Shown here piece after piece: positions 1,315-64,000 of a stretch of DNA of 64,000 bases. The stretch comes from Amphibalanus amphitrite. Its lineage: Eukaryota > Arthropoda > Thecostraca > Balanomorpha > Balanidae. The stretch covers positions 248,001 through 312,000 of the forward strand of contig NW_024881520.1 of the NCBI RefSeq assembly GCF_019059575.1, written 5' to 3'. The number at the start of each line of letters is the position of its first letter. The first letter of the stretch is position 1. The position numbers and the translations under genes are program-made. A model generated the notes under the pieces. It was not told where the DNA came from and did not search any database. It saw only the letters and a program-made list of their open reading frames with translations.

Positions 1315-1318
1315 TTAA

Positions 1319-2177
1319 CACGCGCAGTGGAAGGGGGGGGGCGGATTTCGCCCACCCCTCCTGTTTTTCGCCAATAACTCGCGCCGCGAAGATAATATCA
1401 ATGTGAAATTTTGGCTACTTGTCCAAAATTGAATTGCGGATCTTCTCGTGCAAGAAATAAGAAAATCGGTTCACAACGTTTCTAGTAATAGCGGTGTAAA
1501 GTCAAACATCCTGCCGCGGCGGCGGCGCGGCGGCGCGGCGGCCGGCGCTAGCCGTTACGCGCCGCCTGAATTGTAGACTGTGCCGGGGCGGGACGGTTCC
1601 GTCTTTACATCGCGCTCCTTACCGCTGATTATATTAGATTCGCGTCAAATTCGGTGAGAAGACTGAGAAATGTACAGGCAATCATATGGTCAAAGAATTT
1701 TGAAAATCGGCCGGAAACAATTTGAGTTATGAGTGTGTAAACACAAAATTGTGATTGCCGCGTTTCCCGCGTCCGCCGATCCCGCTTCAGCCGGCAACAT
1801 CTTACCCTTAGCAGGCTTCTAACTGCCATATTTATTGTTGGATTATCTAGAAATTCACCATACATACTCCCAAATGTTCGATCTTTCGTATAGTGAAAGA
1901 AAAAAGAAATTCGGCTGGTAACTTTTTGAGTTATCGGCGTGTAAACGCAAAAAAGTCGCTAATATGGCAGATTTGACCACATTTGACCTCATTTGACCTT
2001 GAAGATATTGACCTAGGGTCATGAAATTCACACACAACAGAGTTCCCCATGGCCTTCACCTACCCTCCAAATTTCGTCTTTCTAGCTCCAGTGGGAGCTG
2101 AGATCTTAGGGGGGGCGACATCCGCCCCCCCCCCCCTTCCACTGGGCGTAGTACTCGCAACCCTTCCACTGCGCGGG
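1319..2177. mobile_element. TTAA element with variable ends (core CGCGCAGTGGAAGG)
   Basis: An 859-bp non-autonomous element flanked by TTAA (1315-1318 and 2178-2181). Its left end starts CACGCGCAGTGGAAGG; the right end, read inward, starts CCCGCGCAGTGGAAGG. The core is repeated a second time about 28 bp inside the right end, next to a C-run. G-run/loop/C-run hairpins lie just inside both ends (about 1328-1355 and 2107-2137). The left TTAA is also the right TTAA of the element at 156-1314, so it inserted exactly at that boundary. The interior contains a CGG-rich block (about 1512-1556) and TTTGACCT-type motifs (about 1975-2020). No coding frame is seen. Confidence 0.75.
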
Positions 2178-2181
2178 TTAA

Positions 2182-2732
2182 ATGAGGTAGTAGCGTAATG
2201 AATTATTATTAGAGTGATAATTTTTTAGTGGCGTTTGTCATTTTTATTTCATAGGTAATAATAAAAAATATAGTCTACCCCAAAAGGTTTAAAATTAGCA
2301 GGGCTACACTAAAAACTTCTAAATGATATTTTTGACAATTTTGGACCTTGTCGCTCAAAAATGAAAGTAATTAATTTTGAAATATTTTCAAAGTTGTAAG
2401 ACGGAACATAGTCATAGTTCTATGATTTCCGATAACATGCCTTTTACTCGATGTTATGACATATTTCTTAGGAGGCCTGTAAACGGTCAAAGGGGCTACC
2501 TTTGATTTGACCTTTGATTGCCTTTGATTTGATTTTGATGTGACCCGTGTCCTCATCGGTTGCACCTAGGTCAACAAAATTTGATCACATGGTAGTGTCC
2601 CAGTGCAGTGGGGCTATCGAACGCCGTTTGAGTTTTGAAAATCGTCTGGACACTTTTCGAGATATTAGGGGGGGGGGGGCGAGACTCCCCCCACGAGTGG
2701 CATGGTCCGGGAATACTCCTACGGGGCGCGAG
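2182..2732. mobile_element. possible decayed TTAA element (right end only)
   Basis: A G-run/loop/C-run segment (about 2668-2692) is followed about 40 bp later by TTAA at 2733-2736. It is preceded by a 'gagatatta' motif like those just inside the right ends of the other variable-end elements. TTTGACCT-like motifs occur at about 2500-2545. No matching left end is found, so this is at best a truncated relic. Confidence 0.3.
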
Positions 2733-3427
2733 TTAATTCAATTATCGAAGCTTAGCGTCGGGTATGTGTCGCTTCACAGTTTCGATAGTCTAGTCATACT
2801 TCACACTTCGCGAAGCATGGAACTGGCGAAGCCTCAGCATTTTAAGGGAAAATTCGACTATTTTCTACTCACTTCCGAGGGAAAAATGACGCCTTACTGA
2901 TGCACCACATGTGCTGATCACTGAAAAGATTTTCTCTACTGGCAACAAGGAAGGAAAATGCAGTTCTTTGCACGCTCAAGGCAAACGTAAATCAACCATG
3001 GAGGTTAGAACCACCTCTTGACCACGCTCACAAACCTTCTGTCATCTTTAGACAGCCCTGTTCCTTGGTGGCGACCGAATCGATACCGGCATCTTGTTGT
3101 GCCGCGGAGTTGTGCGGCGTCAATGTATTTTCTTCTGGCCACGAAGGCACCGGTTACTTACGCCCCAGTTGGCGGAGAAGCACCGGGATCTCGTTCGACT
3201 CCCCAGCACCAACAAAGGAGGTTACGTTGTCAGCTATAGTTCATAGAAACCAGATGCCGGTTGTGGAAAGTGAGGTCCAAAATCGGGGATGGACCAAAAT
3301 CAAAATCGATTTTGTACGGGGATGGACCAAAACCGGTGACAGGTATAGATAATAAAGACATACATTCTTATACAGAGAAAATGATAAAAGACTGTAATTT
3401 GTTCACGATGAAATGCAGTAAATGTTG

Positions 3428-5323: not shown

Positions 5324-5676
5324 GTAAGTGCCATGCCTCGGTTGTCCACAAATGTGTAAAGTTGCAAAATTAAAAAGTCAATGGAGGCCATCAGAAGTTA
5401 AGTATCGTGACCTGACCTTCACGAGTCCTTGACACCCTGACTCACCATAGTCCATGGTACTTACAAAAACATCACTTTCACGTGTTGGTGCGTTTCTTGA
5501 TGAAAAACGCTCAAGATGGTGGGCGCCGACGTGCCTCGGATCGCTTCCCGTCCTGAAAAGGATTTCAGGTTCGATAAAAAAATAGTCATCTGGTTGATAC
5601 TTCAATATTTCCTAATCGTAACAGAAAACACAAACGCCAACATTCAAAGTAGAAATGATCACCTGTCTTTCCTTAA

Positions 5677-7732
5677 CCCGCGCGGGGCTGGGGTCTCCAG
5701 CCGAACGCGCGGGGCTGGGGGGGGGGGGTAAATTTTACCCCCCTGTTATCTCCCGAACTAATGGTCCGATTTGGAAAATTTAAACGCCAATCGAAAGATC
5801 TCATCACGAACAACTAAAAACATGTACTTAATTTTAAGTTTGAGGCCAAAGTCAAGGTCAGGTTAAGGGTACAAATTGCAAGTTCCTACAGTATCGGCCT
5901 TGCACCGTAGTTGCCGAAGAATGGAGTCATGGACTGAGACTGATCGCCCAAAACGTGTTCTTAGGCTACCAAGACAATATTCGTTGCATACAATATCATT
6001 CAGAGGTCAAGGTCAAGGTCAGGTCAGGTCAGGTCAGGTCACCAAAAACAAAATATAGAAAAGGGCATGTGCGACACATGTTGTATGGGTCATTTTACTC
6101 ATAGAATTCAATAGGCACACTCAATAAGTGATATGGACCACCTCTGGATGAATTTCAGGTCGAGGTCAGGTCAAGGTCAGGTAAAGTGAAGTCAAATTTT
6201 GAAGTTGGTTGTTAAGGCCTAAAAAGTTGTCTATCTGATCCAGTTTTTCACGGAGAATCGAATGGTGCTATTTTGGTTTCCGTACGAGGTCTAGAACTTC
6301 CAAAAAAGTCATTTTTCCAAAATTTTTGTGTGTCGTGACGTCATACAATTTTGAATAACTCCCACATTTTTGAACCGATTCTTCTAAAACTTGGTATATA
6401 GGTGCACATAGACCACTTCTCTGACATATATTCCGGTCTTTTCGATACACTCAAAATTTTGGATTTTATAGTTATTTTCCCAAAAAAGTCAGTTTTTTGG
6501 AAAAAATTGGGTCAAAATCCAACATTAAAAAAACGAGATAGCCATTTGATAGACAAAGTAGAATTACGTATATCCTTTTTTTGTTACGTCTTGATTCCTT
6601 TAACCCTATTAGTGGCAGGCTCCTGGCTACCCCATATTAGTGGCAGGGGGGGGGGGCTGTTTACGACCCCCCCTTGATATCTCGAGATCTAACCGGCCGA
6701 TTTTCAAAATTCAAACGGCATTCGATTTGGCTCAACGAGATCTACATTTCTAAAAAAAAAAAAAAAAATTAAAAAATGTCAATAGGGGGGGTAGAGGGGG
6801 GTAAAAACGGGCAAATTGCAGATACATTTTAGACTGTTTATCACGGCCAGGTTTCTGAACCAATCTTAACGCAACTTTTGCCGATCGATAGAGAATGAAC
6901 CAGGAATTCACATGGATCCTAAAAATATGCATTTTCAAAAATCATAGGCGGATACAGATCATTGAGATTGGGGTTACACAAAAAGTATAGTAAATAAGGT
7001 TTTTGTTGGTACTGTTTCTAAAAAGGGTGGCAATGGTCTTGTTATGTTACAATTTTCTTATGAGAGAACGACTAAAATTGTATTGGTCATGCATAGGTGG
7101 TGTCAGGGCACCTATGTTGGGAGGTAAAAAATAACCCCCCTTTTTGGACGCCTGGATCCGCCTATTATAGCAAAAACGTGTCAAAAGAGGATGCACAATA
7201 ACTTTGTATATGTTATCACATGAAACCTTTCATTCACTGTTCGTAAAACTGGTGCAGCATCGTGATCTTCGCCCAAATGACTCACTTCACGAATAAGACC
7301 CCCCAATTCCCAGTGCTCTGGAGCCGCCCCTGGTAAAGTTATGAACTTGAAATTTTCAGGGAATGTGCCCAATTTAGTTTTAGGAAAAGTCAGAAAATTT
7401 CAGCATCGTAGCTTCAGCGGTTTCGGAGATATTCGCGAAAAACCTGAGGGGTGGATAAAAACAACCCCCCTGCCACTAATAGGGTTAAAAATGAAGATGT
7501 TAGCGGCGTTTGAACTTTTGCCGTTTTTTGAGGCGAAAATGGCGAACATGACGTCACTAAAACGTCAATTTCTCAAAAAGTTTCCGACGGATTTCGCTCA
7601 AATTTTCAGGGAACGTGTCGAATTGATGTAAGAAAAGGTACTGAACGTTTGGCGGCGCTGCGCGCCGCCGTTTCTGAGATATTGCAAAACTTCGCGAGGG
7701 GGGTAAAATTTACCCCCCCAGCCCCGCGCGGG
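5677..7732. mobile_element. TTAA element with variable ends (core GCGCGGGGCTGGGG), host of a nested element
   Basis: Flanked by TTAA (5673-5676 and 7733-7736). Its left end starts CCCGCGCGGGGCTGGGG and the right end is its reverse complement. The core recurs at 5706 next to a G-run. Just inside the left end is the hairpin GGGGGGTAAATTTTACCCCC; the mirror form is inside the right end at about 7698-7719. The interior is rich in AGGTCA-type hexamers (6004-6044, 6159-6184). A second element occupies 6604-7484. No transposase is seen. Confidence 0.85.
6604..7484. mobile_element. TTAA element nested in another (core TATTAGTGGCAG)
   Basis: An 881-bp element flanked by TTAA (6600-6603 and 7485-7488). 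It begins CCCTATTAGTGGCAG and ends with the exact reverse complement. The core is repeated about 28 bp inside the left end, leading into a run of ten or more Gs and then GTTTACGACCCCCC. The inner flank (about 6674-6730) carries the 'tatctcgag..' then 'caaaattcaaacggcattcga' type block shared with 5747-5800 and 63744-63795. Confidence 0.85.
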
Positions 7733-7736
7733 TTAA

Positions 7737-8694: not shown

Positions 8695-9985
8695 CAGGGT
8701 GTTGCAGGTAAATTGGGACTAAGTTCATGACCTTACAAAAAATTTGCTATGCGGAGGAACATCATGGAAATTTGACACAATATAATTTCAACAATTGTTT
8801 TTCATTTGATATTGAAATTTTAATCCTAACATATCGCGCGTATCGCGCAGTCATGGAGCAGCGTCGGAGGGAAACGATTGGTGAGTTAGTTCGCGCCGGA
8901 CAGAGTGCGAAGGACATAATAAGTTTAACTGGGTACCCAAAGTCTACCGTGTACCGAACTATCGCGACCGTAGGAGCTGGAGGGGATGTCGCTCGACGTC
9001 CTCACACACCTCGCAGTGACCGAAAACGGACACCAACATTCCTGAGCGGCTTGAAACGCTCGATTCAGGCCAAACCGAGGACCTCGATGAACAAGCTTGC
9101 GCGTGCCCGTCACGTGAGCAAGAGCACCATCAGCAGAGCCGTGAGAGAGGACCTCGGGATGAAGTCGTTTACCAGAAAACGACGAAGCCTCCTGACCGAA
9201 CCAGCAAGGGCGATGCGAAGGGAGAGGGCACCGAAGGTCCTCAATCTCCTCAAGCACCTCGGGAGTGACGTCAGGGTATTTGTCGATGAGAAAAAGTTCA
9301 TCGTAGAAGAGGTCGCCAACCGCCGGAACTCGCGGGCTATCGCCTACAGCGCTGATGAAGTGGCTCCCGTGATGAAAGGCAAAAATCCGGCATCAGTGAT
9401 GGTATTCGGGGTCGTCGCAAGTGATGGCCGCATAATGCCGCCCCATTTCATACCTGCTGGTGTGATGATCGACACTGACGCGTATTTGACCATCCTGAAG
9501 GAGTCTCTCATCCCCTGGATGATGAAATACTATGACCTGAGCAAAGTCATGCTGGTGCAAGACTCCGCCCCAGCACATGCTTCCCAGAGGGTGCAAGATT
9601 TCCTGAGCCAGAGGATCCCCCTTTATGTACCCAAGGACATATGGCCCTCCAACTCGCCTGACTTGAATCCATGCGACTTCTGGATGTGGGGCGTGGTAGA
9701 ACAAAAGTCCAACTCGACCACTCATGCCAACGTTTCTGACCTGAAGAAGGCCATCAGGAAGGCAGTCAGCACCATTGACCAGGACGAGGCCCGGCGCGCG
9801 TGCTCCGCTTTCCGGCGCCGTCTCGAGAGGGTGCGGGACGCCGACGGCGGTCACATCGAGTGACAAGGCTGTGCGTACATGACACAATACACGTGCGAAG
9901 TTTCAACTTTCTATGTTTTCATTCACCGTATTAATAGCATGTTGAAATTAGGTTTGAAAATTCCCAATTTACCTGCAACACCCTG
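8695..9985 (+). mobile_element. complete Tc1/mariner-type transposon (DD37D)
   Basis: A 1,291-bp element with perfect 24-bp terminal inverted repeats starting CAGGGTGTTGCAGGTAAATT at 8695. The reverse complement ends at 9985. The target duplication is TA (8693-8694 and 9986-9987). One uninterrupted transposase frame lies between the ends. Perfect ends plus an intact frame suggest recent or current activity. Confidence 0.93.
8853..9863 (+). CDS. Tc1/mariner-family transposase, DD37D
   Basis: It would cut and paste the surrounding element at TA sites in the nucleus. From the ATG at 8853 (MEQRRRETIGELV) it encodes 336 residues, normal for the family. The frame stays open upstream to 8727, but that extension is AT-rich and unlike the family. 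The N-terminal half has two helix-turn-helix regions (around GQSAKDIISLTGYPKSTVYR, then SMNKLARARHVSKSTISRAV). The catalytic Asp residues lie in VFVDEKKF, VQDSAPAH and NPCDFW, with 37 residues between the second and third, which places it in the DD37D group. The motif SPDLNP before the last Asp is typical. No stop or frameshift is seen. Confidence 0.9.
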   Translation: MEQRRRETIGELVRAGQSAKDIISLTGYPKSTVYRTIATVGAGGDVARRPHTPRSDRKRTPTFLSGLKRSIQAKPRTSMNKLARARHVSKSTISRAVREDLGMKSFTRKRRSLLTEPARAMRRERAPKVLNLLKHLGSDVRVFVDEKKFIVEEVANRRNSRAIAYSADEVAPVMKGKNPASVMVFGVVASDGRIMPPHFIPAGVMIDTDAYLTILKESLIPWMMKYYDLSKVMLVQDSAPAHASQRVQDFLSQRIPLYVPKDIWPSNSPDLNPCDFWMWGVVEQKSNSTTHANVSDLKKAIRKAVSTIDQDEARRACSAFRRRLERVRDADGGHIE

Positions 9986-12286: not shown

Positions 12287-14350
12287 TAGGGGAAGTTGGG
12301 GCAATGCCGGAGTTGGGGCAAAGCCGAAATTCGAGATATTTCTAAAACCGTAGGACATGGATGCCACGTCTCAGTGATGCTCTGAAGCTTAAGTGACTAC
12401 AATTATCGCATGTTTGTTACGAGTTGTCATTTGGAATACTTCGGCTGTGAGGGCGCCAAAAGCGTTTTCAAGGTACTTGTACTACATGCGCCTTTGAAGC
12501 TGCATTTCTTACTCATTATGCTACCGTTTGTCTGGCCAATTCGGTCAAGTAATCTTCAGCATGTCTTTGCATAAGTGTGCTGCCTATTTGAAATTTATAC
12601 AGCACGTTTAAAAGTTATGGGCCTGCAAATGAAAGTATGGCTGGCTGGGGTAATGCCGAAAACGTGCAATTACGCACGTTAAAGCACGCTACGTGGACTT
12701 TACTGCTGTAGAATAGCAACGCGTATTTTTAGTCAAACAAATTACACTTTCAGCCGGCAAAACTGCCTGTTACCTATAGGAATGATTTACCTAGCATTTT
12801 TTTATTATATCACACAATTATAACTTCCAGTGTGCACCAAGCGTCCTCAAGCTCTTAAAACGCGTGTCAGCTTTGATGAATTTTGGATAAAGTTTGAGAT
12901 AAATTGGCAAAACATCAATGTCGGCATTCCTCGTAGATCATTTATCCCATTTTCGGCTTTCCCCGCAGTCCGGGGCAACGCCGAAAAAGTCAGTTCTTTG
13001 ATATTTTTAGTTTTTGCGCTTAACCCGGCCGGGCCCGGGGGGTAATCCCAACCACCGCAGCCCGGGGGGGGGCGTTTTTCGCCCCCTCCTGTCTAACTCC
13101 GTAAATAAGGGAGCTACGAAAACAAAAGCGATACCAAACGAAAGGTCCTTACGAGACGATTCTAATGCACCTAAAATTTTTGACCTCAGGTCAATTTTCA
13201 AGGTCAGAGGACAAGGTCAAAGGCCAAAACCGGCACATGTAAGCCTTCTAGAGGACGGCAGGCTGCATCAAACCGGCAAAATTGGGTGTCAAACGAAAGA
13301 AGAGAATCTGAGGATTCTGAAAATGTGCTCCAAATCAAAGGTCAAGGTCAAGGTCACGCTCAAAATTGACCTCAAACTTGTCACTTTTTCGCACATCTTG
13401 CGTGCTAACTTCCAAGATGTTTTGAAATGTTTTGAGGCTTATCAGTTCCCTATTTGTGGTTCATCTTACGATACAAGGCTGCTCAAAGGTCAAGGTCACA
13501 GAAGAGTATCCCTGCTAGAGGCTATTTCACTGATTCAAGTTAGTAATAATAAATAAGACAATTTTGCCATCCGGAAGCTCTAAATGAAGGCTTAGAGGAA
13601 AATAGATGCCAGATTCGTGATCAGCGGGTACAAATCCATCATAAACGACCTTTCATGTGTCAAGGTCAACCAGAGGTCATTCGAGGTCACATGAGGTCAA
13701 TATGAAACTTGACATTTTCCGAACAAAATATATATCATTCGACGCGGCTTGACAAGGCGAATGCGATGGTACCACTGCCGTAGCTCTAGGACCATTTTTG
13801 TCGAAGCTATTTGCGAAAAACTAAAACCACATTTCGAGGTCGTTGACCTGACCTCTGACCTCAGGTCACCAAAACTATTTTTCTATTTTTCTCTAGGTCA
13901 AACGCTACACAGCCGTGCTCGTAATTTGTCTTTATCTCTAAAACTCTATTTTTAGCAGCTATTTGAAGTTTGCGTCTGTGACGCCGATTTTTGCCGTGCA
14001 GGGGTCTAGAAAAATGGACCTTGTGACGTCATCAAGGGGGCTAGGTCCAAATTTTTTACTTCAGAAGATGTCAAATTGATGGGAGAAAAGGTACTGAAAG
14101 TTTCGCCTTCCTATCCCTAAGCGTTCGGGAGTTATCGCAAATATTCGCCAGGGGGGGGGGGCGAAAAACGCCCCCCCCCCCGGGCCCGCGAGGGTTAACG
14201 GTATGCGAATTCATCAAATGCGCCTGGTATGTTTGAAAGACAAAAGACTAGCCTCTCGAATGACGCCAACAAGAATAGCTTATGTTGTCTACCTTGCGTG
14301 CTACGGGCGTCAGAAAAAAAAAGTATTCGGCGTTCCCCCAACTTCCCCTA
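12287..14350. mobile_element. inner DNA transposon with TAGGGGAAGTTGGGG ends
   Basis: The left end TAGGGGAAGTTGGGGCAATG at 12287 matches the reverse complement of the right end (TAGGGGAAGTTGGGGGAACG, 14350). It resembles the outer element's ends, so they may share a superfamily. Flanking CACT/AGTG partly extends the inverted repeat. The interior is cut by the TTAA element at 13024-14194. No transposase is seen. Confidence 0.7.
13024..14194. mobile_element. TTAA element with variable ends (core GGCCGGGCCCG), innermost of a triple nest
   Basis: A 1,171-bp element flanked by TTAA (13020-13023 and 14195-14198). The left end is CCCGGCCGGGCCCGG; the right end is GGGCCCGCGAGGG. A second, weaker core copy runs into a G-run at about 13060. 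The hairpins are GGGGGGCGTTTTTCGCCCCC on the left and its mirror with GCGAAAAACGC on the right (14151-14180). AGGTCA-type motifs recur in the interior (13190-13225, 13337-13358, 13483-13500, 13657-13708, 13833-13868). The open frame at 13014-13556 follows those repeats and is not convincing as a gene. Confidence 0.85.
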
Positions 14351-14735: not shown

Positions 14736-15277
14736 CGGGAGACCGGCATGGGAGCACCCGACCGTACTGGACTCTCAATAGTCCCAGATCGGCTTTTGTC
14801 TCTAATCACAAGTATGTAATAAATGATTTGACGGGATGCTTGAAGGACAGCCTACGAATTTAGGGGGGGCGTCTTTCCCCATCAGGACAGGGGGCATCTT
14901 ACCCCAAGGTACCGAAGTAACATTAAATCAGTACAATTTGTTAGCCATAAAACTACACCTTGAAACAAACTGTTTGGGACACAGTACACGCATGTTAATG
15001 TATCACGACTATAGCAAGGGACGCAAAAATTATCTACCTTCTTTGATATTTACAATGTTTTGACACCAAAATATTTTTTGAAAGCAGCAAATAAAAAACA
15101 TGCAATCACCAGCCAGCCGTTGCCCAACTGAGCTTCGCAAATTTTTGTGCAGTTAACAAGGCAGGCTTCCGCTTAACGCTAAGAACATTAATTTCCAGGT
15201 TCGATTCTTTGTTTCGCCGCTAGAGGGGGTGGGGCGTCTTTCCCACCCTGGGCATCTTACCCCACTCTCCCCTACTA

Positions 15278-17874: not shown

Positions 17875-18164
17875 TCACTCCACCCCCGTGTTTGACCACA
17901 GGGAGAACACAAAATGACACGATCACCGACAAAGATGTACAAACAAGTACGATTTACACGCCTAAATCGAATAAACTACCAAACACAAACGGCCGTTATG
18001 CGCGAGTTACGAGGCTCATATTCACAAAGCAAAACACGGATGAATAGTGAGTGCGTCGGTAAGCACGTACACGCACAACAGCCTTCCTTACTTTAACTGG
18101 TTCAGGGGCGAGGGCTCGACAGTCCACAGCCAGCCAGCATCATTTCTTGTTTGCGTTCTGTCGG

Positions 18165-43073: not shown

Positions 43074-43155
43074 CACCCCCCTGATCTACAAGATCACAAA
43101 TCCATAATCAACACAAAAATGCACATAACATGACACAACATAACAAGGCGAGTAC

Positions 43156-46599: not shown

Positions 46600-46637
<38 letters not shown>

Positions 46638-47195: not shown

Positions 47196-47217
47196 TTTTC
47201 GCAATGCCGAAATAGCT

Positions 47218-49105: not shown

Positions 49106-49109
49106 TTAA

Positions 49110-49576
49110 AGGGACCCTCCCACCTTCAAAAAAGTTAATGAATTGGCACGAAAGTGATGTCGCTCGGTTCAGAAAGAGCGAAAACGAATATCTACCAAAT
49201 TTCATCGAAAAATATTCACCGGTTTTCAAGATATTAGACTTTTACTTTTGTTTACTTTTTGGGATCTCCGCTGTTCCTAGCGACTTTATTTGAAAGTGCG
49301 GCATTTGTTGCGCGCAAAGCAGCATATACCACCGCGTGCTACCAAACGTTTTAGTAAAATATTTAAAAATCGTTAGATCTCCGCTGACGTCACAAATTCT
49401 AAGGGGGCATACCAATGCACTAGCCCCTTAGAATCCGAAAACTGCAAGTTTGAAATTCCATATCTCCGAATTAAAGCATTTGTCGATGTTGTGAGTGCCC
49501 AAACCGGTATTTGCAGGCCATGGCCACCAATTTGGCTGTCTCAACTCAAAACTAATGTTAAGGTGGGAGTGTCCCT
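49110..49576. mobile_element. TTAA MITE, copy 2 of 5
   Basis: 467 bp, AGGGACCCTCCCACCTT at the left; the right end carries GGGAGTGTCCCT, a change shared only with the next copy. TTAA at 49106-49109 and 49577-49580. Orientation opposite to copy 1. Confidence 0.85.
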
Positions 49577-49580
49577 TTAA

Positions 49581-50048
49581 AGGGACCCTCCCACCTTCAA
49601 AAAAAGTTAATGAATTGGCACGAAAGTGATGTCGCTCGGTTCAGAAAGAGCGAAAACGAATATCTACCAAATTTCATCGAAAAATATTCACCGGTTTTCA
49701 AGATATTAGACTTTTACTTTTGTTTACTTTTTGGGATCTCCGCTGTTCCTAGCGACTTTATTTGAAAGTGCGGCATTTGTTGCGCGCAAAGCAGCATATA
49801 CCACCGCGTGCTACCAAACGTTTTAGTAAAAGATTTAAAAATCGTTAGGGCTCCGCTGACGTCACAAATTCTAAGGGGGCATACCAATGCACTAGCCCCT
49901 TAGAATCCGAAAACTGCAAGTTTGAAATTCCATATCTCCGAATTAAAGCATTTGTCGATGTTGTGAGTGCCCAAACCGGTATTTGCAGGCCATGGCCACC
50001 AATTTGGCTATCTCAACTCAAAACTAATGTTAAGGTGGGAGTGTCCCT
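49581..50048. mobile_element. TTAA MITE, copy 3 of 5
   Basis: 468 bp, same orientation as and almost identical to copy 2, including the GGGAGTGTCCCT right end. It shares single TTAA sites with the copies on both sides. Confidence 0.85.
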
Positions 50049-50052
50049 TTAA

Positions 50053-51581
50053 AGGGACCCTCCCACCTTAACATTAGATTTGAGTTGAGATAGCCAAAAT
50101 GGGGTCCCTGGCTCACAATTACCGGTTTCGGCACTCACAACATCGAGAAATGCCTTAACCCTCGCCGGACCTATTGGTTTTCTACATACGCGCCGGCCGA
50201 GGGGGGGGGGGGGGGGCGGGTACGACCCCCCCCTCGCCGTTTCGCCCCTGGTGGAGCTAGCGCGTCGCGGAAAAAACGAGCGTGTGCGCCGTTACGAGAC
50301 GCAGAGATTGGTACCCGATTTTAAGGTCCTAGGTCAACCGGTGACCTCTGAGGTCAGGTCAAGTGCCCCAGGGTACGGTTCAGTTTTTGGTGAATAACTT
50401 CGCAAAAAACGGCCGCAGAGCCGCGATTTTGGCAGCATCGTGCTCGCCTTGCTCAGGCGCGTCGAATGATATACTTTTTGTTCGGGTCAGGTCAACTTAG
50501 GGTGTTGACCTCAGGTCAAGGTCAGGTCAGCACCCCCAGGTCACGAAGCTGGTCGAAAGAGGTCATGTCGCATATCATTCGATTCGGCAGGTCTTCCTGA
50601 GTCCATTGGTGGCTTTCCCGACTCGCTAGCTCAATTTGATCGGGAGTTATTGACGAAAAACTAATATGACCTTGATGACGTCATAAATGACGTCACGGAA
50701 GGTCAACATTGCAAAAGTGACGCATCTAACCTTGCAAGGAGTGCATCAAATCACGATTCTGTGTGCTTGAGATAGTTGGAGATCGTTTCCGGCGCCAGAA
50801 TAGCAGTTTGAATTTTTCCCCATTGACTTATAATGGTGAGGTCACGAAAATGACCTGACCTCATATGACCTTTAGGAAAAATCCGAGATATACAAGTTGT
50901 GAGACCCATAATGGATACTAGATCCTGCAAGTTTCATTTCCCTGTGACATCTCCTCTGGCAGTGAGGGCGTTGCGAAGTTGCGACATCTGAAGACCATGC
51001 AGAGGTTCACTTATGACGTCATAGGTCAGTGACCTGACCTGACCCAAAAATGCGGTTGGTGTCAAAAGATGCGGCTTGGATCAAAGGTCAGGTATGCCAA
51101 GTTTCAGCTCTCTATCGCCAGCGTGTTCGGAGCTATCGTGAAAAAAACCTATGGGGGGGGGGGCGGCACCCGCCCCCCCTCGGCCGGCGAGGGTTAAATC
51201 GGAAATATTGAATTTCAAAATTGCAGCATTTTGATTCAGAGGGGCTAATGCATAGGAATACCCCTATGAATGTGTGACGTCAGCGCAGATATCTGACGAT
51301 TTTTAAATGTTTGACTAAAACGTTTTGTAGCACGCGGTGGCATATGCTGCTTTGAGCGCAACAAGTACCGCACTTTCAGCTACCAAACTATTGCTTCCAA
51401 ATAAAGTCGCTAGGAACAGCGGAGATCCCAAAAAGTAAACAAAAGTAAAAGTCTAATATCTTGAAGACCGGTGAATATTTTTCGGTGAAACTTGGTTAGA
51501 TATTCGTTTTCGCTCTTTCTGAACCGAGCGACATCACTTTCATGCCAATTCATAAACTTTTTTGAAGGTGGGAGGGTCCCT
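50053..51581. mobile_element. TTAA MITE, copy 4 of 5, interrupted
   Basis: Same orientation as copy 1, opposite to copies 2 and 3. It is split at 50155-50158 by the element at 50159-51193; removing that element gives CCTTAAATCGG exactly as in copy 1. The right end meets another variable-end element at 51586. Confidence 0.85.
50159..51193. mobile_element. TTAA element with variable ends (core CGCCGG), nested in a MITE
   Basis: A 1,035-bp element, CCCTCGCCGG to CCGGCGAGGG, with TTAA duplicated on both sides (50155-50158 and 51194-51197). The core recurs as CGCCGGCCGAGGG about 34 bp inside the left end, before a long G-run and GTACGACCCCCCC. The mirror hairpin is at about 51152-51180. AGGTCA-type hexamers are frequent (50328-50362, 50484-50540, 50860-50872, 51024-51046). 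No transposase is seen. Confidence 0.9.
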
Positions 51582-51585
51582 TTTA

Positions 51586-52440
51586 CCCTCGCCGGCACAG
51601 GCCATTTTGCGTCCTTCGACGGCACAAGGGGGGGGGGGGGTGGTACGACCCCCCCTCGCGTTTGGCTCCTGATCGAGCTAGAGCTTCGCGGAAAAAAAGA
51701 GCGTGTTGCCCGTCACGAGACGAAGCCGATGATACCCAATTTTAAGGTCCTAGGTCATCGGGTGACCTTCCAGGTCAGGTCAATGACCCGAAAACCGGGA
51801 AAATCGGGACCTGTTAGAAAGTCGTAAAGTGTGGCTGCTATGAGGTTTTCCGGGGTGCTGATCACAAATAGCGTGTTAGTTTTGATCAGAGATGATGTTT
51901 TTAAGCATTTAGACCAGGTCGGGTCAGGTCAGGTCAGGTCAACCGGTAGGGGTTGTGACGGGTATTCGTAATACGTGTCAACCGCCTCTGGCAGCTTCGT
52001 AACATGTTACGAAGGCACCAAAACTACTTCGTAAATGTTCAAATGGTTGCGAAATTCGAATTCAGCTCCAAAAACTAGCCTAGAAACATATAAAACTCGA
52101 AAAAGTGAACCGAGGTCACCCGAGGTCACCAAAGGTCAATGACCTGACCTGACCTTCAGGTGACCTTGACACCCACCCTAATGTATGGGAGCAACATCAA
52201 ATCAAATGTTTGAACGTTTGAAACCACGAAAAGCTTGCAAACGCGCGGCTAATGTGAGCCGACATACGCCGAATCGCGATTTCGGTCAAACATGGTCACG
52301 GAAAAGAGGTCACAGGTCAAAGGTCATTGGGGTCAGGGTCATGAGATTTTTAGGGAACGTGTAAAATTGATCAATGCGAGGGTACTGAAAGTTTCGCCGT
52401 TTATGAGCAGTTGGATTCGATGTTACTCCGTCTCCCTCCC
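51586..52440. mobile_element. TTAA-type element, right end unclear
   Basis: It starts CCCTCGCCGGCACA immediately after TTTA (an altered TTAA, 51582-51585) at the end of the MITE copy. A second core copy CGACGGCACA precedes a G-run and GTACGACCCCCC. AGGTCA-type hexamers are dense (51748-51782, 51913-51945, 52107-52165). The inner-right motif 'ggtactgaaagtttcgcc' (about 52381-52398) matches 14089-14106. The terminal repeat itself is not found; the sequence passes into a G-run at about 52460. Confidence 0.6.
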
Positions 52441-52517: not shown

Positions 52518-53040
52518 AGGCCGCCGTCCACTGCGACGGAATTCCGTCCGGAGTCCGTCCGGAATGTCGCCGCACGCTGGCCGCATCCGGTCCGGATGCG
52601 GTCCGGATGCGATCCGGATGCGGAGAGCTAATAAATGTTTCCTATCACTTATTACCAAATAAAATATTGCAAGTAACCAGCAGCGAATACTCTTGCCATT
52701 CTAAGGAAATAATTTTTACTTACTTCATGATGATCGAGTTCCAATTCTTCGTACAATTCACAATGTTTGCCTCCGATACGGCCCCAAACCACGTCTGTTC
52801 CGGACGTTCCGGATGCGTTTTCCGCAGAAAAGTTCAACGCGTCGGACATCACTCTTCCGTCTCCGTAGCAACCGCATCCGAAACGCATGCGGAGAGCTGA
52901 CGGAAAATCAACAGCTGATTGCCGTTCGGATGCGGTCCGGACGGAGCGCACACGATTTCCGTACGGACCGGATGCGCCCATAGGGTTCTGTGTTAAATTC
53001 CGTACGGACCGCACGCGTTCCGCACAGTGGACGGCGGCCT
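52518..53040. mobile_element. PIF/Harbinger-like MITE
   Basis: 523 bp with the inverted repeat AGGCCGCCGTCCACTG at both ends and the target duplication TAA (52515-52517 and 53041-53043), the 3-bp type of PIF/Harbinger. The interior near each end repeats CCGGATGCG and its complement many times (52580-52622 and 52925-52975). No coding. Confidence 0.75.
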
Positions 53041-56000
53041 TAAGAAGCACTTAAACTTCTGAAGTTTTGCTGAAATGTTTTATTTGAACTTATTGATATA
53101 AACGTTTATGAAAGTTACGGCGATTATTGGAGGTCAAATGGTACGAAAGTTTCCTCGAAATCATAAACCTGTAATAAGTATTCACTTTACGGTAGTTAGA
53201 GATACAGATAACAGAAGGTTGGGAAAGAGGACAGAACTCACAGGAACCACCAATTTTCCATGGAACAAGCAACCGACTTTCAGCTTAGCATGCACCAGGG
53301 TGGTGGACACTTTGCGCGTAACTAATGGGAGGTTTGGTTTTCGTCTTCGGAGGACACAAACCTCAAGAATATATGCTTCTAGTTCTATGGGAAACCTTAG
53401 GCATTATCTTTTGAGTTTTGAGCCCGTCTAAAATCTTCGGTCTGACATAGATTTATCAGCGATATCTTTCGTGTCAAAACACGGGATATTGAAAAAGGTT
53501 TTATAACTTCACCTGAAAAGGTCAATCCAAACTTTGAACTAAGGTCAAGCTTGTGACCTGACCGAAAAGTCATGCTGCAGGTAAGTCGATCCGCTTGCTC
53601 AGTTGAACAGATGCGTTGTGTGTGGATAGTTCTTCAATGTCTCTGATCTAACGTTATTGTCCATGCAACTGCTGATGACCTTCTAATGACCCAACACGAC
53701 TTCAGAGGATGTGGATCACTGTCGCAATTACACCATCATCATTCATTAGCATTTTGCTACACGCTATCCAAAAAGTTAAGCATGCATTTGGTCTAAAATA
53801 CGCGCAAGTTTGAGTTCCTTCTAGTAACAAGCATGGCAGATCCTTATGCCTGAGAAAATGATCCTTTTTACACACATCAGTTTTTTTCTCGACACCTTTC
53901 GAGTAACGAGAACCGAGTGACAACAAAGGAACCCGCCTGAGCCAGGTCGATAACAATTTATGACAGCCCTCGCAAGCACAGGTGCAAACTGCATGCGCAG
54001 TCTCGCATGCGAGAAAACACGAAAAATTTGGAGCAGTAGCTGCCATGGCCCGTCCCGTTTCTCTGGCGTCAATATCGACGCACCTGTCTTCACCAGAGCT
54101 CCACAGCGACCGCCGCGACATCTATGTAGCGATATCTGGTGTGCCTCCGGAATACTGCGGCACCGGGGTCGGGTCCAGCTCGGAGGGATGGTGTGTGGCG
54201 ACATCTATGGGACATCTAGCACATGCGACCCTTGGCTGGTAAAGGTGAGAAGCTAACGAGTTATTTATTGTATTTTATTGAGATGCATTCAAAATGGATA
54301 TACCCGTTTGGCATGCAGGAAGCGGGCGCAGACAATGATGCCCACAATATGTTGTGTTTGAGAATTAAATTCGCCAGCAAAATTTACGTGGTGCTTTTTC
54401 CGTTTCACCCAGTTGTTCATGACTAAAAGAATTGCACGACATATTGACAAAGAAGTGAATAGCAAATGAACGCGTCATTGTTGAGATATCGAATTGGTCA
54501 TAGGTATTACGTTACCTATTTATGGCTATTTATTGTTGCATCTATTCACTGCGCCACTGATTATTTATTGTAATACAGTACCTATACCTACATACTATAT
54601 AACCACGCTGATCTGAGCGACTCACGATTGGAGTAACGTCTTCAAACATCCCGCTTCCTTCAAATACGTCGCATGGTGCAAGCCTAACATTGGCAACACG
54701 CATGCGCGGGCGTCACTTCTCGAAATATATTGATGGGGCTCTAATGGTTTATTTTAGGATACCGTCCAAAGCCATTCTTACCACGTAGCGCTATAGGGCT
54801 CATGTTGAGATTCTGAAATTAGGAATTGGTAGGGCTCGGGATTTACCAAGCCTACAAAACGAAAGCCATGCACGCATGACATGCTGCACCATTCCGCTTA
54901 CTCCCTACTGTGCAATTCAACCTTTTAAGAAAACTTGACCGATTTATATCCTGGAAAACTTCTCACCTATGCTCTACTACAAAATATGTTACATATTTTG
55001 CTCATTCATATTCCACACCCGTTCGCGACATGCGAACCAGCATTATTATTCATTTAATCCCGTTTGATATTTTGATCACGTCCCGCGGGCATTGTGTGAA
55101 AATGACAGCCTAAAGCGTGACTGGGAAAGCAAAATAGCGGCCGCCTCCGCCATCCCGTCGACCATTATGCAATCTCAACCTCCTCCTTTTAAATTTTTCT
55201 GTTTTCCTTCTCGTCTCTATCTGGTTCCCCTCTTTTTTTCTAATAGCCTGGTTTATCTCCCTTATTGCATTTCATCGTGCAAAGAAGTCAATATGGTTTT
55301 AAGGACCCTCTCACTGTGGGGCGACAGATTGGGGAGTTAAATGTCGATTTTTCAGTTATCACACAACTCCGCAAATACTCAGCGCGTCCATCGTGCGCCC
55401 CGGCTCGACGTAAACTGCGCTGTTTACCCCCGACTACGCCGGGCACCGCAGTTCCATTTGCTCTTCTCCACCCTGCCCTCGTTATCTGACCCCCTTGTTA
55501 TCTGATCCCCCCCCCCCCCCCGATCCCCTCCCTTCACGCTCCCTCCCCGCCTCCCAGCTGGCTCAGTGTCTCCGTCGTCTCACCTCTGGGCCGCCTATCG
55601 CGATTCGACATCACGGTAATGCTTGATTTTTCCATTATCACGCTTATAAGTTTTTTCCTAATTGTCCTATCATCAATTTGTTTCTTTAAGGAAATCAAGC
55701 GTGCTAGCCGCAGAGAAAATTTGGTGAGAATTTCGGCGAAAAGTGTCGGCCTTCACCCCACCAGCCGTAGCTGTTTACCAAACGTCGCGTCATTATGTCG
55801 TAACCGCTATCCATAACACACTGTGTTGGGCGTCGCTGTGCGCCGGCATAATTTACGTCAGGCCTGAGCTGTAACACACGCCGAGCGTGTTTACAGTCGA
55901 CCATCCCTCGTCCGGCGTCCCCTGTTTATGGCCGTTTATCGCCGTGTTATTGGGCAAACGAGACGACTTGTGGTCAAAATCCGGCCGCAGCCATTACGGC

Positions 56001-58204: not shown

Positions 58205-58599
58205 ATGTATCGTACAGCAAAGGCAACTATCGGAAATACTTAGCCAGAGCCCCAACTTTGCACCGGCTCACAGCGCCTGAATAATGCCATAAAAAGGAGC
58301 GGCTATTTCTGCTCGCTGCTGAAGAGCTCGCTGCTGCTGCGGAGCGTTAACTTTTCGGCCCGGGAGACAGAGGGTCGCCGCGGCTGATGCCGATGGCCAT
58401 TGTCAACTGTGCTTCACAGTCCTTTCGCCACAAATATACATACATATGTCGCGCCTACCTGCGTCATCGCTCACTTTGGCTGGCGGAGGAAGTTTTTGAA
58501 CGTCATATTTACAAATAAACCCCGAAGAAAATCATTGGAAAATAATATTGAGTAGCATTCAGCAATTGATAAACACAGGCTAGCCTATTTATATATTAA

Positions 58600-59082
58600 A
58601 GGGACCCTCCCACCTTCAAACAAGTTTATGAATTGGCATGAAAGTGATGTCGCTCGGTTCAGAAAGAGCGAAAACGAATATCTACCAAATTTCATCGAAA
58701 AATATTCACCGGTTTTCAAGATATTAGACTTTTACTTTTGTTTACTTTTTGGGATCTCCGCTGTTCCTAGCGACTTTATTTAAAAGTGCGGCATTTGTTG
58801 CGCGCAACGCAGCATATACCACCGCGTGCTACAAAACGTTTTAGTCAAACATTTAAAAATCGCTAGATATCTGCGCTGACGTCACACATTCAGAGGGGTA
58901 TTCCTATGCATTAGCCCCTCTGAATCAAAATGCTGCAATTTTGAAGCTCAATATTTCCGATTTAAGGCATTTCTCGATGTTGTGAGTGCCGAAACCGGTA
59001 ATTGTGAGCCAGGGACCCCATTTTGGCTATCTCAACTCAAATCTAATGTTAAGGTCTAATGTTAAGGTAATGGAGGGTCCCT
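58600..59082. mobile_element. TTAA MITE, copy 5 of 5
   Basis: 483 bp, same orientation as copies 2 and 3, with TTAA at 58596-58599 and 59083-59086. The right end has an extra TCTAATGTTAAGG duplication before GGAGGGTCCCT. Confidence 0.85.
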
Positions 59083-59993: not shown

Positions 59994-62202
59994 GTAAGAC
60001 ATGTGAGGTCTTACCGGACAGCTCCCCGCCCATGAGCACAACTTCCTTCCCATGACCCCCCACCCCCTCCCGAAACCCAAACACCGCCTCGGCCGACGAT
60101 CTGACCCGGTGTGACGTCACGACAGTCAGCTGATCGGCCCGGCGGCGCGCCAGCTGTTTGTCTCTGCAGTCGTGGCATGACCTTCCGATGGAGACACGAC
60201 ACGGCGCGGCTGGTTACAGATGCCGAGCCGCGGGCCCCACGGCTGTGACCTTGGGGTCGTTTTCTCTTGCTTCACCCTTTGATGGATGGCGTCGAAAGGC
60301 GATTATAATCCACTTTGGTGTGCGCGCCCGGCGCCGGTGTCGTTGAAGGCCTTAGCGCGGAGCTGGGAAGCTCTGACTGTTTTTTTTTTTGTCCGTCGCT
60401 GTGAGGGACGAGGGTCGCGGGCATGGGATTTGAAATGCTGCCCAATAGCCAGGACAGCAATCCTTTTGAGTCAGTTCAAACGATACACCTACGCCCGGTG
60501 CGGTGAATACATAATACTCCCACGAAATGATATCAACTGCGCACTAGCTTTTCCCGGTGATAGCGGGCAGCAAAGAATGGTTATACCGAACGACTTTGAG
60601 CTAAGCCGGATATAAACTCAACTGGAACTCTGTGACCGCTCGATGTCACTGGGGTCTCCGAGCCATCTGAGCCCAATATCCCCGGCGCGGTCGTGCCCGC
60701 CAGCCCATCGAGACGGGGCCGCCACACCCTGGTTTTTGGTCGTCTTTGTGCCCTTTGTATACGCCCGGGGCGTTTTTCGCGATAGTCGGCTCCGTCGGCA
60801 CGCGTCCAGCGCTTTGTGGGTCAGCAGGGGCGCGTTTGACGTGCTAACCGGGTGGCGAATGGTCCTTACGGCTCGACGATCAGCTGATCGCGGCGGCCGG
60901 CAGCCGACGGCCGGCAATTTCCCGGCTAGCCGCAGAGCTGACGAGGGTTCGGCCGACGGCACTGCGGCGCCGCAGCTCGAGCGGGCACTCGGAGGGTGAC
61001 GGGTGCGTGACATATCGTACCGCGCCGTGACGATAGTGACGGTGGGTGTTCGTGTGTGCGTGTGCTCCCCGATCAGCGGCGCGCCGGCCGAATGTACGAC
61101 AACTTTGTCAACAGCTGCGGCGCCCTGTACCAGCGCGAGGTATGTCCGGCCGCGACGGCTTATGTCGCCCGTCGCCTGTCGGTGGGTTGAGTGTTCCCAT
61201 CTTGCAAACGCCCACTGAATGACTGCACCGTGAACACCCACCATAACCCACCAAGACACAGGACTGGTCCCATTTCTTCACAATCATCTGCCCAGAGCTA
61301 TATTTTCCAAGACTAGCCGGCCGAGAAATAGCGGACATCTCTGGCAGTCGGCTAGTTTTTACCAGTCAGCCTGGACTGTGGCCGGGTCTGGTCTGTCTTC
61401 CTTTCTTTACGATGTTTTCTCAATGAGGGGAGGCCGGGTCTGGCTCCATCAGGGCGGTTACCGGACCGTGTCGTTAGGTCTGGTCCGGTCATAATTTTCC
61501 GCCACTCACGCACGGGCAGGCCAAGTGTTTCGCCGCGGCTGGAGACCTTATGCGGCCCTGGCTGCTACATTGTTGGCGGATGTACAGCTGGAGCCCCCAA
61601 CTGGGCCCCGGTGGTGCTGTGGAATAGTTCCCGTCACAAGTGTCACATTTATGACCCATATGTTTAGACGAAGAATAATGGTAACGCTGTGCACAATATT
61701 GATTTTTCTTCAGCAGCATCATATAATTAGTCAAAATGATGCTAACGAAATTAAAAAGCGTCAATTGATTGGTGAATAGCTGAAAATGTAATAGCAAATA
61801 ATTAATTTAGGTTCATATCCTCCGCTTTTTAACGTATATGCGCATTGCGCACCTTTATTACGGAGTAAATCACTTTTTTGAATGCTCGAATTTAGGTGGA
61901 ACCTCAATAAAAAACTCGTTCTGTTTTAACTTGCAATTAAATACTGCCCAATGCAATGTTCCGTTTTCCTAAGCCGCGCCCAATTTATTCTGGGGAAAGT
62001 ACACACGCTCATGCACTGTTCTCCGGGTCACCGATCTGTAGCCAATCAACTGAGAACGGCAGATGCACATTTCAGCAGAGAATGGCAGCTCCACATTGAA
62101 GCCCGATCTCGCTCCACATTGAAGCCCGATCTCACTTTCGCCTCTGATGGTGAGCTGGAGTTGTCTGTCTGCGGTCTGGGAGAGGTAGCCGCATCCGAAG
62201 GT

Positions 62203-62445
62203 CGCCAGACAGACAGAAGGGCAGACAGACGGGCAGACAAACTCACAGACGAACAGACGGACAGACGGACGGACGGACGGACAGACGGACAGACGGGCGG
62301 GCAGATGGACAGACGGACAGACAGATGGGCAGACGGACAGACGGGCGGGCAGACAGACGGACAGATGGACAGACAGACAGACGGACGGGTAGACAGATGA
62401 GCAGACGAGCAGACGGACAGACAGATGGACAGACAGACGAAGAGA
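62203..62445. repeat. imperfect (GACA/GACG)n microsatellite
   Basis: About 240 bp of GACAGACG/GACGGGCA units, with degenerate Cys/Pro/Ser or Asp/Arg/Thr open frames in all phases. Confidence 0.95.
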
Positions 62446-63672
62446 CACAAGCAGGACCTTTCAAGACACCTATGAAAGGCATGCATTGTCAAACCCGAAC
62501 TGATCTGGACAAAACCAAATCTAACCAGTTAATATTGGGATAGAATGCCCAAACTGGTGCATACCAGAACAAACGGGGACCTTCAGGAGCAATGTGGAAG
62601 AAAGCAGATGGTCTGGAACAGGCTTAAACGAACCATGTCAGGCTGAGACAGTCCAAAACAAATCAGAACAGACTGGAACGACCTGCGGCAGACCGGACGA
62701 GCCTAGGACAGACTTGGTTAGACTGGGAGTGCACGTCAAACGGTGAACAATTGATATCCACACAACGGTCGGCTCCATGATACCACAAACAGGCAGATTG
62801 TGCTGCATTGCTGCAGCGCCCTGGCTGCAGCTACATGGCATAGCACATGACTCCAGGCACGACTGCTCAGGGGGGGGGGGGGGGGGGGGCGACGTGCTGA
62901 CTGCTGCGGGAATGGACGTATCGTCGTGTGAGGGCTCGACACAGGAAGTTAAGTCGCCGAAGATGAATTGTTTTACGGGACGCATTCATTAGTAGTTATC
63001 TTTACATTCATTTGAGACATCTCAGTGACCAAAAGCCAGTTTAAGAGGTATGAACAACTTTTGAAATAAGAAGCGATGGAGTGGTGCATCATTGAAAATG
63101 TAAGGCAGAATGAAAGTGACTGTTTACATATACCTACCTTGCCGGGGGTGAATGATCTCCCCGGTGCGCAGTGGTGCGCAGTGGGCCTATGATCCATTTC
63201 AACGGCCGAAACCTAACCCGTATGCCTGACACCTCAAATGACACGGTGGCTGTCACTCGACCCATTACACAACACGACTCGGTTCGTATATAGCTCGGCG
63301 ACCCGTAACCCGACCGTACCCGTACCCGGCGACCCCGCACCTGACCCGTACTTGTTGACCCGGTACGGACCGTACCGTAACCGATCCCTGTAACTCTCCC
63401 TTGATCCTGACATACGTCAGGATCTGGACACCGCTCAGGGGTCCTGGGCATGGGGTGCGGTGTCAGCCCGTGCCTCGCACGGGGGACAGCCCGTACTGCC
63501 GCCCCCTCCCCCACCCCACTTCCGGTGGTCCACAAAGGCTGTTCTCTATGTTGGTGCAAGTCTGCAAAGTGCAAACGGTAACAGGCAAAGGAATTTAGAG
63601 GCAGGGGACCGATCAGAAGCATGAGGGAATAATGAAGATGGCCTGATTGTTAGCTTACCTCCGAGAGATTAA

Positions 63673-64000
63673 CCCGGCAGGCGGTGGGCCTACCAGCCAC
63701 CTTCCACGCGGTGGGGGGGGGGGGGGGCACTTTTTTGCCCCCCCGTATCTCCGAAACTACTGGACGGATCCGGAAAATTCAAACGGCGTTCGATAGCCCT
63801 GTCAAATTTGTCGAAGGAAACCAAATTTCATTGGCCTCGGGGTCACCGATGACGTCACAGGTCAGGTCAAAGATAAAATGTTTCACCGTTCACAGGGCTT
63901 CTAGGGAAAGCGCTATAACACCGAGTAAAACGCATTCTGTCGAAAATCAGCGATAAGGCGTCAGTTGTCTAGTACATATGTTGCTATTAGAGGTCACTGG
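63673..64000. mobile_element. TTAA element with variable ends (core GGCGGTGGG), cut by the window end
   Basis: It starts CCCGGCAGGCGGTGGG after TTAA (63669-63672). The core recurs as CGCGGTGGG about 28 bp in, leading into a G-run and GCACTTTTTTGCCCCCCC. The inner block (63744-63795) matches 5747-5800 and 6674-6730. AGGTCAGGTCAAAG is at 63859. The right end is outside the window. Confidence 0.7.

Follow-up and report, generated by a model that had tools for sequence, protein, structure and literature searches.

The window, the whole 64,000-nucleotide stretch analysed here, holds eight non-coding elements (E1–E8) that are probably piggyBac-type MITEs, moved by an unseen transposase or transposases, with recognition modules that diversified in concert. 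Both ends are present in five of them (E1–E5), and each of these has one short end and one long end; the complete elements measure 867–1179 bp when E2 is taken without the nested E3. Because E3 lies within E2, E2 spans 5673–7736.

E1, 1315 to 2181, minus strand: 867 bp, TTAA on either side; short end at left (CACGCGCAGTGGAAGG), long end at right with a second core at 27 bp
E8, 2423 to 2736, minus strand: long end at TTAA 2733–2736; tip CTC; core repeat 28 bp; hairpin 2668–2692; sub-terminal DNA like that of E3 and E7 as far as about 2423
E2, 5673 to 7736, plus strand: 2064 bp with nested E3, 1179 bp without; long end at left, short end at right; core GCGCGGGGCTG the same in 3 of 3 copies; palindrome loop TAAATTTTA at either end
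E3, 6600 to 7488, plus strand: 889 bp, sits in E2 at a TTAA; core TATTAGTGGCA in 3 of 3 copies; no AGGTCA
E4, 13020 to 14198, plus strand: 1179 bp; palindrome loop CGTTTTTCG at either end
E5, 50155 to 51197, plus strand: 1043 bp; sits at an internal TTAA of a Kolobok/T2-like MITE
E6, 51582 to 52420 (end coordinate approximate), plus strand: long end at TTTA; right tip lost; E2-like short-end block at 52346–52397
E7, 63669 to 64000, plus strand: long end only, continuing past the window edge; core repeat 27 bp

A preliminary description had listed seven positions (1319, 5677, 6604, 13024, 50159, 51586 and 63673), and all seven are element starts. E8, on the minus strand at 2736, was absent from that list and was found by a TTAA scan; a search for its second end found none. 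A second end, attributed to all seven elements, is visible in five (E1–E5); the right tip of E6 is lost, and E7 leaves the window.

Results

In a short end the tip is followed by the core and then by a palindrome that starts 14–15 nt in. In a long end tip and core are followed by a spacer of about 16 nt, a second core and a palindrome that starts 41–43 nt in. This key asymmetry was overlooked in the preliminary description, which took the second end for the mirror image of the first; the two are not mirror images, the long one being extended by 27–28 bp with its core duplicated. E2 serves as the example.

Long end of E2, 5677 to 5743, plus strand: outer core 5680–5690, inner core 5707–5717, G-run 5717–5728, loop 5729–5737, C-run 5738–5743
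Short end of E2, 7698 to 7732, minus strand: tip and core 7719–7732, palindrome 7698–7719

With 31 offsets tried, the top direct-repeat offset in the long end was 27 or 28 in all seven elements E1–E7, and it is 28 in E8. The long-end core repeat was matched in none of 2000 shuffles for E1–E3, in 7 for E4, 15 for E6 and 38 for E7; for E5 the count was 538, and its repeat is not significant when taken alone. All eight long ends fit an asymmetry of the LE/RE type, with both ends visible in five elements. Short-end palindromes are centred at 27.5 (E1), 24.5 (E2), 28.5 (E4) and 25.5 (E5), with no definable centre in E3. The hairpin ascribed to every element is clear in 9 of the 12 ends folded (at most 10 of 200 shuffles fold as well) but weak in the E3 long end, E6 and E8 (28–36 of 200); the short end of E3, outside the 12, is without a clean C-run.

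TTAA adjoins 12 of the 13 definable ends (eight long, five short), one of which, E8, was itself located by the TTAA scan. The tip of Trichoplusia ni piggyBac is CCC; the same letters stand at 11 of the 13 ends, with CAC at the E1 short end and CTC at E8. A TTAA followed by CCC or CAC, claimed for all seven elements, holds nearly throughout but fails at the E6 flank, which reads TTTA. Hairpins of a G-run and a C-run number 27 (both strands, palindromes counted twice), and 10 of them have TTAA exactly 14–15 or 41–43 nt upstream; at the same distances the runner-up tetramer reaches 4, and the frequency of TTAA would predict 0.39. A looser scan placed 12 of 16 TTAA–hairpin pairs at 12–17 or 39–45; in 100 dinucleotide shuffles such pairs averaged 0.39 and never exceeded 3. 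The 12 include two non-ends (7758, a neighbouring TTAA facing the E2 hairpin, and 14923, unrelated). A chance origin of this spacing is ruled out by the hairpin and tetramer count and the shuffle scan, the tested distances having been picked once the elements had been seen.

The host repeat of E5 is a T2-like MITE with four other copies in which the site is empty; T2a is one such paralogue.

T2a, 684 to 1169, unstranded: uninterrupted T2-like MITE paralogue, empty site TTAA at 790–793

Each of these four paralogues has a single TTAA at its empty site, which shows the TTAA duplication for E5. That the flanks are target duplications had been named beforehand as refutable, and it holds for this element; in the others a flanking TTAA is seen. 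The TTTA at the long end of E6 is the 3' TTAA of the T2-like MITE that hosts E5, with one base altered.

Core and palindrome loop agree inside an element and differ across elements. Over 11 positions, core identity is 0.84 within an element (18 pairs), a value somewhat favoured by fixing the register of the inner copy by best offset, versus 0.39 between elements (192 pairs), a difference reached in 0 of 5000 label permutations. When core and loop of the long end are compared with those of the short end, identity is 0.81–1.00 in five of five elements, against a mean of 0.51 between elements (73 pairs). The three core copies of E4 and of E5 show some divergence, the two of E7 and of E8 more. The cores, each known from one element and all within 64 kb, differ between most elements, but calling them unrelated was an overstatement: 7–9 of 11 positions are alike in E5 and E6, and 6 of 11 in E1 and E3 (AGTGGnA in register). 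The statement that the ends vary while the plan is kept is largely right, with the reservation that some cores are related.

DNA just internal to the palindromes is homologous among many elements in a mosaic-like way. In 7 of 28 long-end pairs and 7 of 15 short-end pairs the similarity was reached by none of 300 shuffles, which bears out the inner block said to be common to the elements. The short ends form a chain (E1–E3, E3–E2, E2–E4, E2–E6 and E3–E5), and the long ends link E2, E3, E7 and E8 together and E5–E6 separately; these links support grouping the elements as one kinship. The cores are more variable than the sub-terminal DNA in E3/E8 (82% over 50 nt; core 1 of 11), E2/E3 (76% over 51 and 84% over 38 nt; core 2 of 11) and E3/E7 (95% over 21 nt; core 3–4 of 11), and less clearly in E2/E7 (76% over 51 nt; core 5–6 of 11). 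This does not extend to E5/E6, whose core and long-end sub-terminal DNA (87%) diverged to a similar degree, without excess change in the core. The description of the diversification as fast is not sustained, there being no clock and the two kinds of change being similar in this pair.

The 28 window ORFs of at least 150 aa, a scan that excludes spliced genes, gave no Pfam match to a piggyBac transposase, and neither did 18 shorter ORFs that lie in or overlap E1–E6 and E8. Among 19 ORFs of at least 60 aa in or overlapping the same elements, none had a Pfam match at 0.01; the E7 region was left out of both element scans. These Pfam scans thus showed no transposase remnant within E1–E6 and E8.

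Comparison with known systems

The assignment to the piggyBac type is supported by TTAA flanks, CCC tips and LE/RE spacing. Set against published text, not by alignment with its ends, T. ni piggyBac (IFP2; LE35/RE63) is alike in its TTAA target, in a core and palindrome at each end, in having one end with an insert and a duplicated core offset by 27–28 bp, and in a palindrome centre at about bp 25 (PMC7351741). According to that text, right-end bp 34–63 approximately repeat left-end bp 7–35, that is, at 27–28 bp, and the palindrome at bp 17–33, centred at about 25, is bound by a CRD dimer (PMC7351741); the distances of the palindromic repeats from the TIRs are given as 3 and 31 nt (PMC12324416). 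E1–E8 differ in that the palindrome arms are G and C homopolymer runs, the cores vary by element and a transposase gene is lacking. The text consulted in PMC10954464 has nothing on piggyBac end asymmetry. PiggyBat of Myotis lucifugus, with a tetrameric transposase, is described as alike in its asymmetric ends and in a core motif followed by an imperfect palindrome, but its left-end motif has a period of 44 bp (11–16, 55–60, 99–104) and its right end is without such a palindrome (PMC11707139, PMC13405395). As described there, piggyBat differs, and the 27–28 bp LE/RE displacement is a trait of T. ni piggyBac that is not universal in the superfamily.

Coral CMITEs are likewise TTAA MITEs with mostly CCC tips, with terminal repeats that vary from family to family around a better conserved interior; one family is reported to have a piggyBac-like partner, and a pair of alleles, one carrying the element and one lacking it, is described (PMC2872659). 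They are a published precedent for ends more variable than the interior, and they break the rule, invoked in the preliminary description, that related MITEs normally keep their ends. Unlike E1–E5 (867–1179 bp) they measure about 100 bp, their conserved part is a 75-base internal region, and the text seen describes neither asymmetric core duplication nor a G-run palindrome (PMC2872659). Daphnia Pokey/mPok resembles E1–E8 in that its piggyBac MITEs are large, at about 750 bp, carry repeats close to their ends, fall into two ITR lineages and insert at TTAA adjoining other copies; it differs, in the portion consulted, in its ITR of 12–16 bp, favoured rDNA target and known autonomous partner (PMC3849761). 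PMC titles and abstract openings, a scope that excludes subscription journals and Repbase, yielded no G-run palindrome or conserved 27–28 bp repeat in piggyBac MITEs.

Discussion

If the elements behave as T. ni piggyBac does, a transposase dimer would read the core at either tip, a second dimer may sit on the repeated core and palindrome of the long end, paired C-terminal zinc domains would grip the G-run/C-run palindrome, and TTAA would be the site of excision and insertion. On this reading common ancestry is preserved in the sub-terminal DNA, and the core (three copies) and the loop (two copies) changed jointly in each lineage. The likeliest cause would be that they diverged together with the DNA-reading regions of a number of related transposases, and homogenisation or exchange of ends may help the joint change. 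More tentatively, 64 kb could contain at least six recognition modules on one fixed scaffold, with cores and palindromes changed together repeatedly and the 27–28 bp phasing kept.

A single piggyBac-type transposase might instead move all of the elements, TTAA-CCC, spacing and palindrome being sufficient and the core drifting neutrally under homogenisation by gap repair or end-to-end conversion. A constant plan and spacing with variable cores would suit this, and the coral CMITE authors propose something similar, namely that the tip motif and a conserved inner region may suffice (PMC2872659). However, the within-element core agreement of 0.84 would call for selection or for highly active homogenisation, and transposition in the T. 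ni system is reported to fall to roughly half when the second core motif of its right end is randomised (PMC7351741); we regard the single enzyme as possible but doubtful. Modular shuffling, in which ends and interiors are swapped and each element is a chimera, is a serious possibility if somewhat short of an even chance, and is compatible with the concerted diversification of piggyBac-type MITEs. The long ends of E5 and E6 agree at 87% (z 42), but no likeness is seen in their short-end DNA (z 0.1), that of E6 resembling E2 (z 15) and E4 (z 11), and a block of about 170 nt (171) in E4, the longest interior match, matches E5 at 70% in inverted orientation. Against this, the terminal modules agree between both ends in five of five elements, so that exchange of a single end would need later homogenisation.

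It is improbable that E1–E8 are separate old piggyBac MITE families with their own histories and a likeness imposed by the enzyme family. In favour of this are the differing cores, interior matches that are partial or short (171 nt at most) and the fact that, while 14 of the 28 + 15 sub-terminal pairs lie above every shuffle, the other 29 are less distinct; but the short ends chain E1–E6 and the long ends link E2, E3, E7 and E8, and E5–E6, and these links largely refute separate families as a full account. Kolobok (T2) or another TTAA superfamily in place of piggyBac is most improbable. Kolobok also targets TTAA, and T2-like MITEs are present in the window, but Kolobok tips are RR, reading AG... 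in general and AGGRR in T2 (PMC6004289). The T2-like MITEs of the window have such a tip (AGGGA), whereas E1–E8 combine CCC in 11 of 13 ends, and otherwise CAC or CTC, with piggyBac LE/RE spacing. On these tips Kolobok is rejected for E1–E8.

The eight elements retain the layout gripped by a piggyBac enzyme while the probable recognition letters differ, and they may form a natural series for the study of DNA recognition, a set of differing modules with which to ask how a transposase reads DNA. The long-end insert and duplicated core of T. ni, a puzzle in the most thoroughly studied pair of piggyBac ends, would then be a design found also in elements with mutually differing cores, which supports the two-dimer model. 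The signature of TTAA-CCC, a core, the core again at 27–28 bp and a palindrome could find diverged piggyBac relatives without sequence similarity. Should each module have its own transposase, the series would be a natural recognition code, the transposon counterpart of rapidly diverging DNA–protein specificity.

Additional observations

In local alignment of the published 60-bp CMITE consensus with the eight elements, 20–92 of 200 shuffles scored as high in six, and 2 of 200 in E5 and E8, uncorrected for eight tests; none of these alignments is convincing as a match. A scan of viral contigs with the 17-base T. ni piggyBac tip returned four loci, rejected as the DNA beside the tip is without a piggyBac end; a scan for the short-end architecture returned three, which look like G/C hairpins of terminator type on contigs resembling phage and are not taken for elements. 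The genes and retroelements of the window point to an animal as its source. AGGTCA-type hexamers, attributed to every element, are absent from E3 (no AGGTCA or TGACCT) but strongly enriched in the other seven including E8, with 76 copies against a mean of 3.1 and a maximum of 9 in 200 shuffles.

Shared architecture and insertion sites

Eight elements in the window, E1–E8, share one common plan, in which a long end with a duplicated core is paired, in the five two-ended elements, with a short end carrying a single core. The preliminary description had listed seven elements of uniform plan; the plan held, but the list was incomplete, given that an eighth (E8) lies on the minus strand. Two, E5 and E6, lie in or beside a Kolobok/T2-like TTAA repeat, the T2-like MITE.

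Elements E1–E8 and copies of the T2-like MITE in the window
1315-2181: E1, two ends, TTAA on both flanks, 867 bp
5673-7736: E2, two ends, TTAA on both flanks, 1179 bp without nested E3
6600-7488: E3, inside E2, two ends, TTAA on both flanks, 889 bp
13020-14198: E4, two ends, TTAA on both flanks, 1179 bp
50155-51197: E5, two ends, TTAA on both flanks, 1043 bp
start 51582: E6, flank TTTA, right tip lost
start 63669: E7, extends beyond the window edge
2736, minus strand: E8, long end
684-1169, 49104-49580, 49576-50052, 50049-51585, 58594-59059: T2-like MITE, five copies, TTAA plus AGGGACCCTCCCACC

The short end reads TTAA, CCC (CAC in E1), an 11-base element-specific core and a palindrome of G-run, loop and C-run (E3 lacks a clean C-run), with the G-run beginning 14–15 nt from TTAA in 5/5 cases. 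At the long end a second core copy lies 27 or 28 bp inward, immediately preceding a G-run that begins 41–43 nt from TTAA in 8/8 (counted for E6 from the TTTA at 51582). Among 31 offsets tried, 27 or 28 gave the top repeat in 7/7 elements. Tested per element over E1–E7, the core repeat is beyond shuffles in E1–E3 (each 0/2000), likely in E4 (7/2000), E6 (15/2000) and E7 (38/2000), and not significant in E5 alone (538/2000). By plain counts over 15 columns the same offset comes first in 7/8 elements and fourth in E4, where G-runs confuse the count.

At distances chosen post hoc, with the elements already known, TTAA stands beside 10 of the 27 G/C hairpins found on both strands of the window (runner-up tetramer, 4); wider distance classes gave 12 sites, 2 of them incidental, against a mean of 0.39 and a maximum of 3 in 100 dinucleotide shuffles. 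In single-strand folding, 9/12 hairpins fold better than at least 190 of 200 shuffles, and those of the E3 long end, E6 and E8 do not.

E5 is inserted within a T2-like copy (TTAA-AGGGACCCTCC...), one of three that adjoin with a common TTAA. In four further copies within the window, one of them truncated at an end, a single TTAA occupies the exact insertion point; when the E5 flanks are joined, the local sequence of these copies reappears, barring point differences. These uninterrupted paralogues confirm for E5 the earlier suggestion that the TTAA flank is a target duplication. E3 also entered E2 at a TTAA; a search for a paralogous empty site found none. E6 sits at a TTAA, now TTTA, bordering the same host repeat as E5. 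For Daphnia, ~23% of mPok copies are reported in a TTAA flanking another Pokey/mPok copy, and a target other than TTAA in ~10% of insertions (PMC3849761).

Variation and kinship

Over 11 positions, core identity is 0.84 within elements (18 pairs) versus 0.39 between them (192 pairs; 0.31 expected from composition), a contrast matched by 0/5000 label permutations, with the inner copy taken in its best register, which tilts somewhat towards 'within' identity. Compared register-free, the outer cores of the two ends are identical in E1–E3 and less alike in E4 and E5. The core plus palindrome-loop module agrees at 0.81–1.00 between the two ends of the same element (5/5), and between elements at a mean of 0.51 (highest 0.71, 73 pairs).

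The sub-terminal DNA, just inside the palindromes, is related: 7/28 long-end pairs (one of them, E1/E5, a mere 10-nt match) and 7/15 short-end pairs exceed all 300 shuffles. Long ends group as E2/E3/E7/E8 and E5/E6 (E1 and E4 show a weak affinity to the second group), whereas short ends form a chain of links from E1 to E6, and the two groupings conflict. The long ends of E5 and E6 match at 87%, but their short ends are unlike, that of E6 resembling E2 and E4; the conflict points to exchange of ends. E4 and E5 share a 171-nt block in opposite orientations (70% match).

The earlier statement that the ends vary while the plan is kept is largely right. The core is clearly more changed than the sub-terminal DNA in E3/E8 (1/11 positions shared), E2/E3 (2/11) and E3/E7 (3–4/11) and mildly so in E2/E7 (5–6/11) and E7/E8 (4–7/11), but not in E5/E6 (7–9/11). 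AGGTCA-type hexamers, described as part of the plan, are enriched in seven elements (76 AGGTCA/TGACCT; mean 3.1, maximum 9 in 200 shuffles) but number zero in E3; 47 of the window's 123 fall outside elements. The arrays may have arisen by slippage of a tandem motif, and the hexamers could serve as sites for host factors. TGACGTCA has 15 sites in the window, 12 inside E elements or T2-like MITEs, both TTAA families.

Classification and comparison with piggyBac

Piggybac features are present in the TTAA duplication (established at E5), the CCC tip and the geometry of the left and right ends (LE/RE) of T. ni piggyBac. No piggyBac transposase gene was found in the window among 28 ORFs of at least 150 aa and 18 shorter ones scanned. 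We file E1–E8 as piggyBac-type MITEs with a predicted mobilising enzyme. A Kolobok identity is ruled out by the tip. Identity with CMITEs, coral TTAA MITEs, is ruled out by length, and any resemblance to the CMITE consensus is unconvincing. Varying ends have precedent, since the 2010 report describes CMITE ends as more variable than the interior (PMC2872659). As far as a search of open papers shows, what is new is the combination of variable cores, a fixed 27–28 bp duplication and homopolymer palindromes.

According to PMC7351741, an insert and a second copy of a motif in the T. ni right end make its bp 34-63 almost the same as bp 7-35 of the left end; the tip is held by transposase core domains and the palindrome (bp 17-33) is bound by a dimer of C-terminal zinc domains. 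There, the native enzyme in cells gave excision plus integration only with asymmetric LE35/RE63, and altering the right end, by randomising the second motif or adding 5 bp, about halved activity. As far as that text describes it, the same geometry, in other letters, recurs in 8/8 long ends of E1–E8. In contrast, piggyBat has a 44-bp period and a right end without such a palindrome (PMC11707139). By analogy, T. ni-type transposase(s) would mobilise E1–E8, and the G-run/C-run palindrome is a putative zinc-domain site.

Other features of the window

Repeated GGGGGCATCTTACCCC / GGGGCGTCTTTCCC motifs with G/C hairpins, without the TTAA geometry, occur at 12219, 14863-14905 and 15221-15250. An element recognised by eye at 52519-53042, which has AGGCCGCCGTCCACTG as its terminal repeats and is flanked on each side by TAA, is presumably Harbinger-like, on flank length alone. 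A 378-aa ORF (8727-9863) is by appearance a mariner-like transposase, with a DDE_3 match under the Pfam cut-off. Two short-chain dehydrogenase ORFs at 39499-41945 lie in opposite orientation, 607 nt apart and 93% complementary across 920 nt. The Bel/Pao-type LTR retrotransposon with long ORFs at 17043-24572 is probably recent, because its 300-nt stretches 7230 bp apart are identical. A second retrotransposon (42872-47418) has identical 202-nt repeats and a reverse transcriptase and integrase ORF that holds an 18-bp tandem array (~44338-44634).
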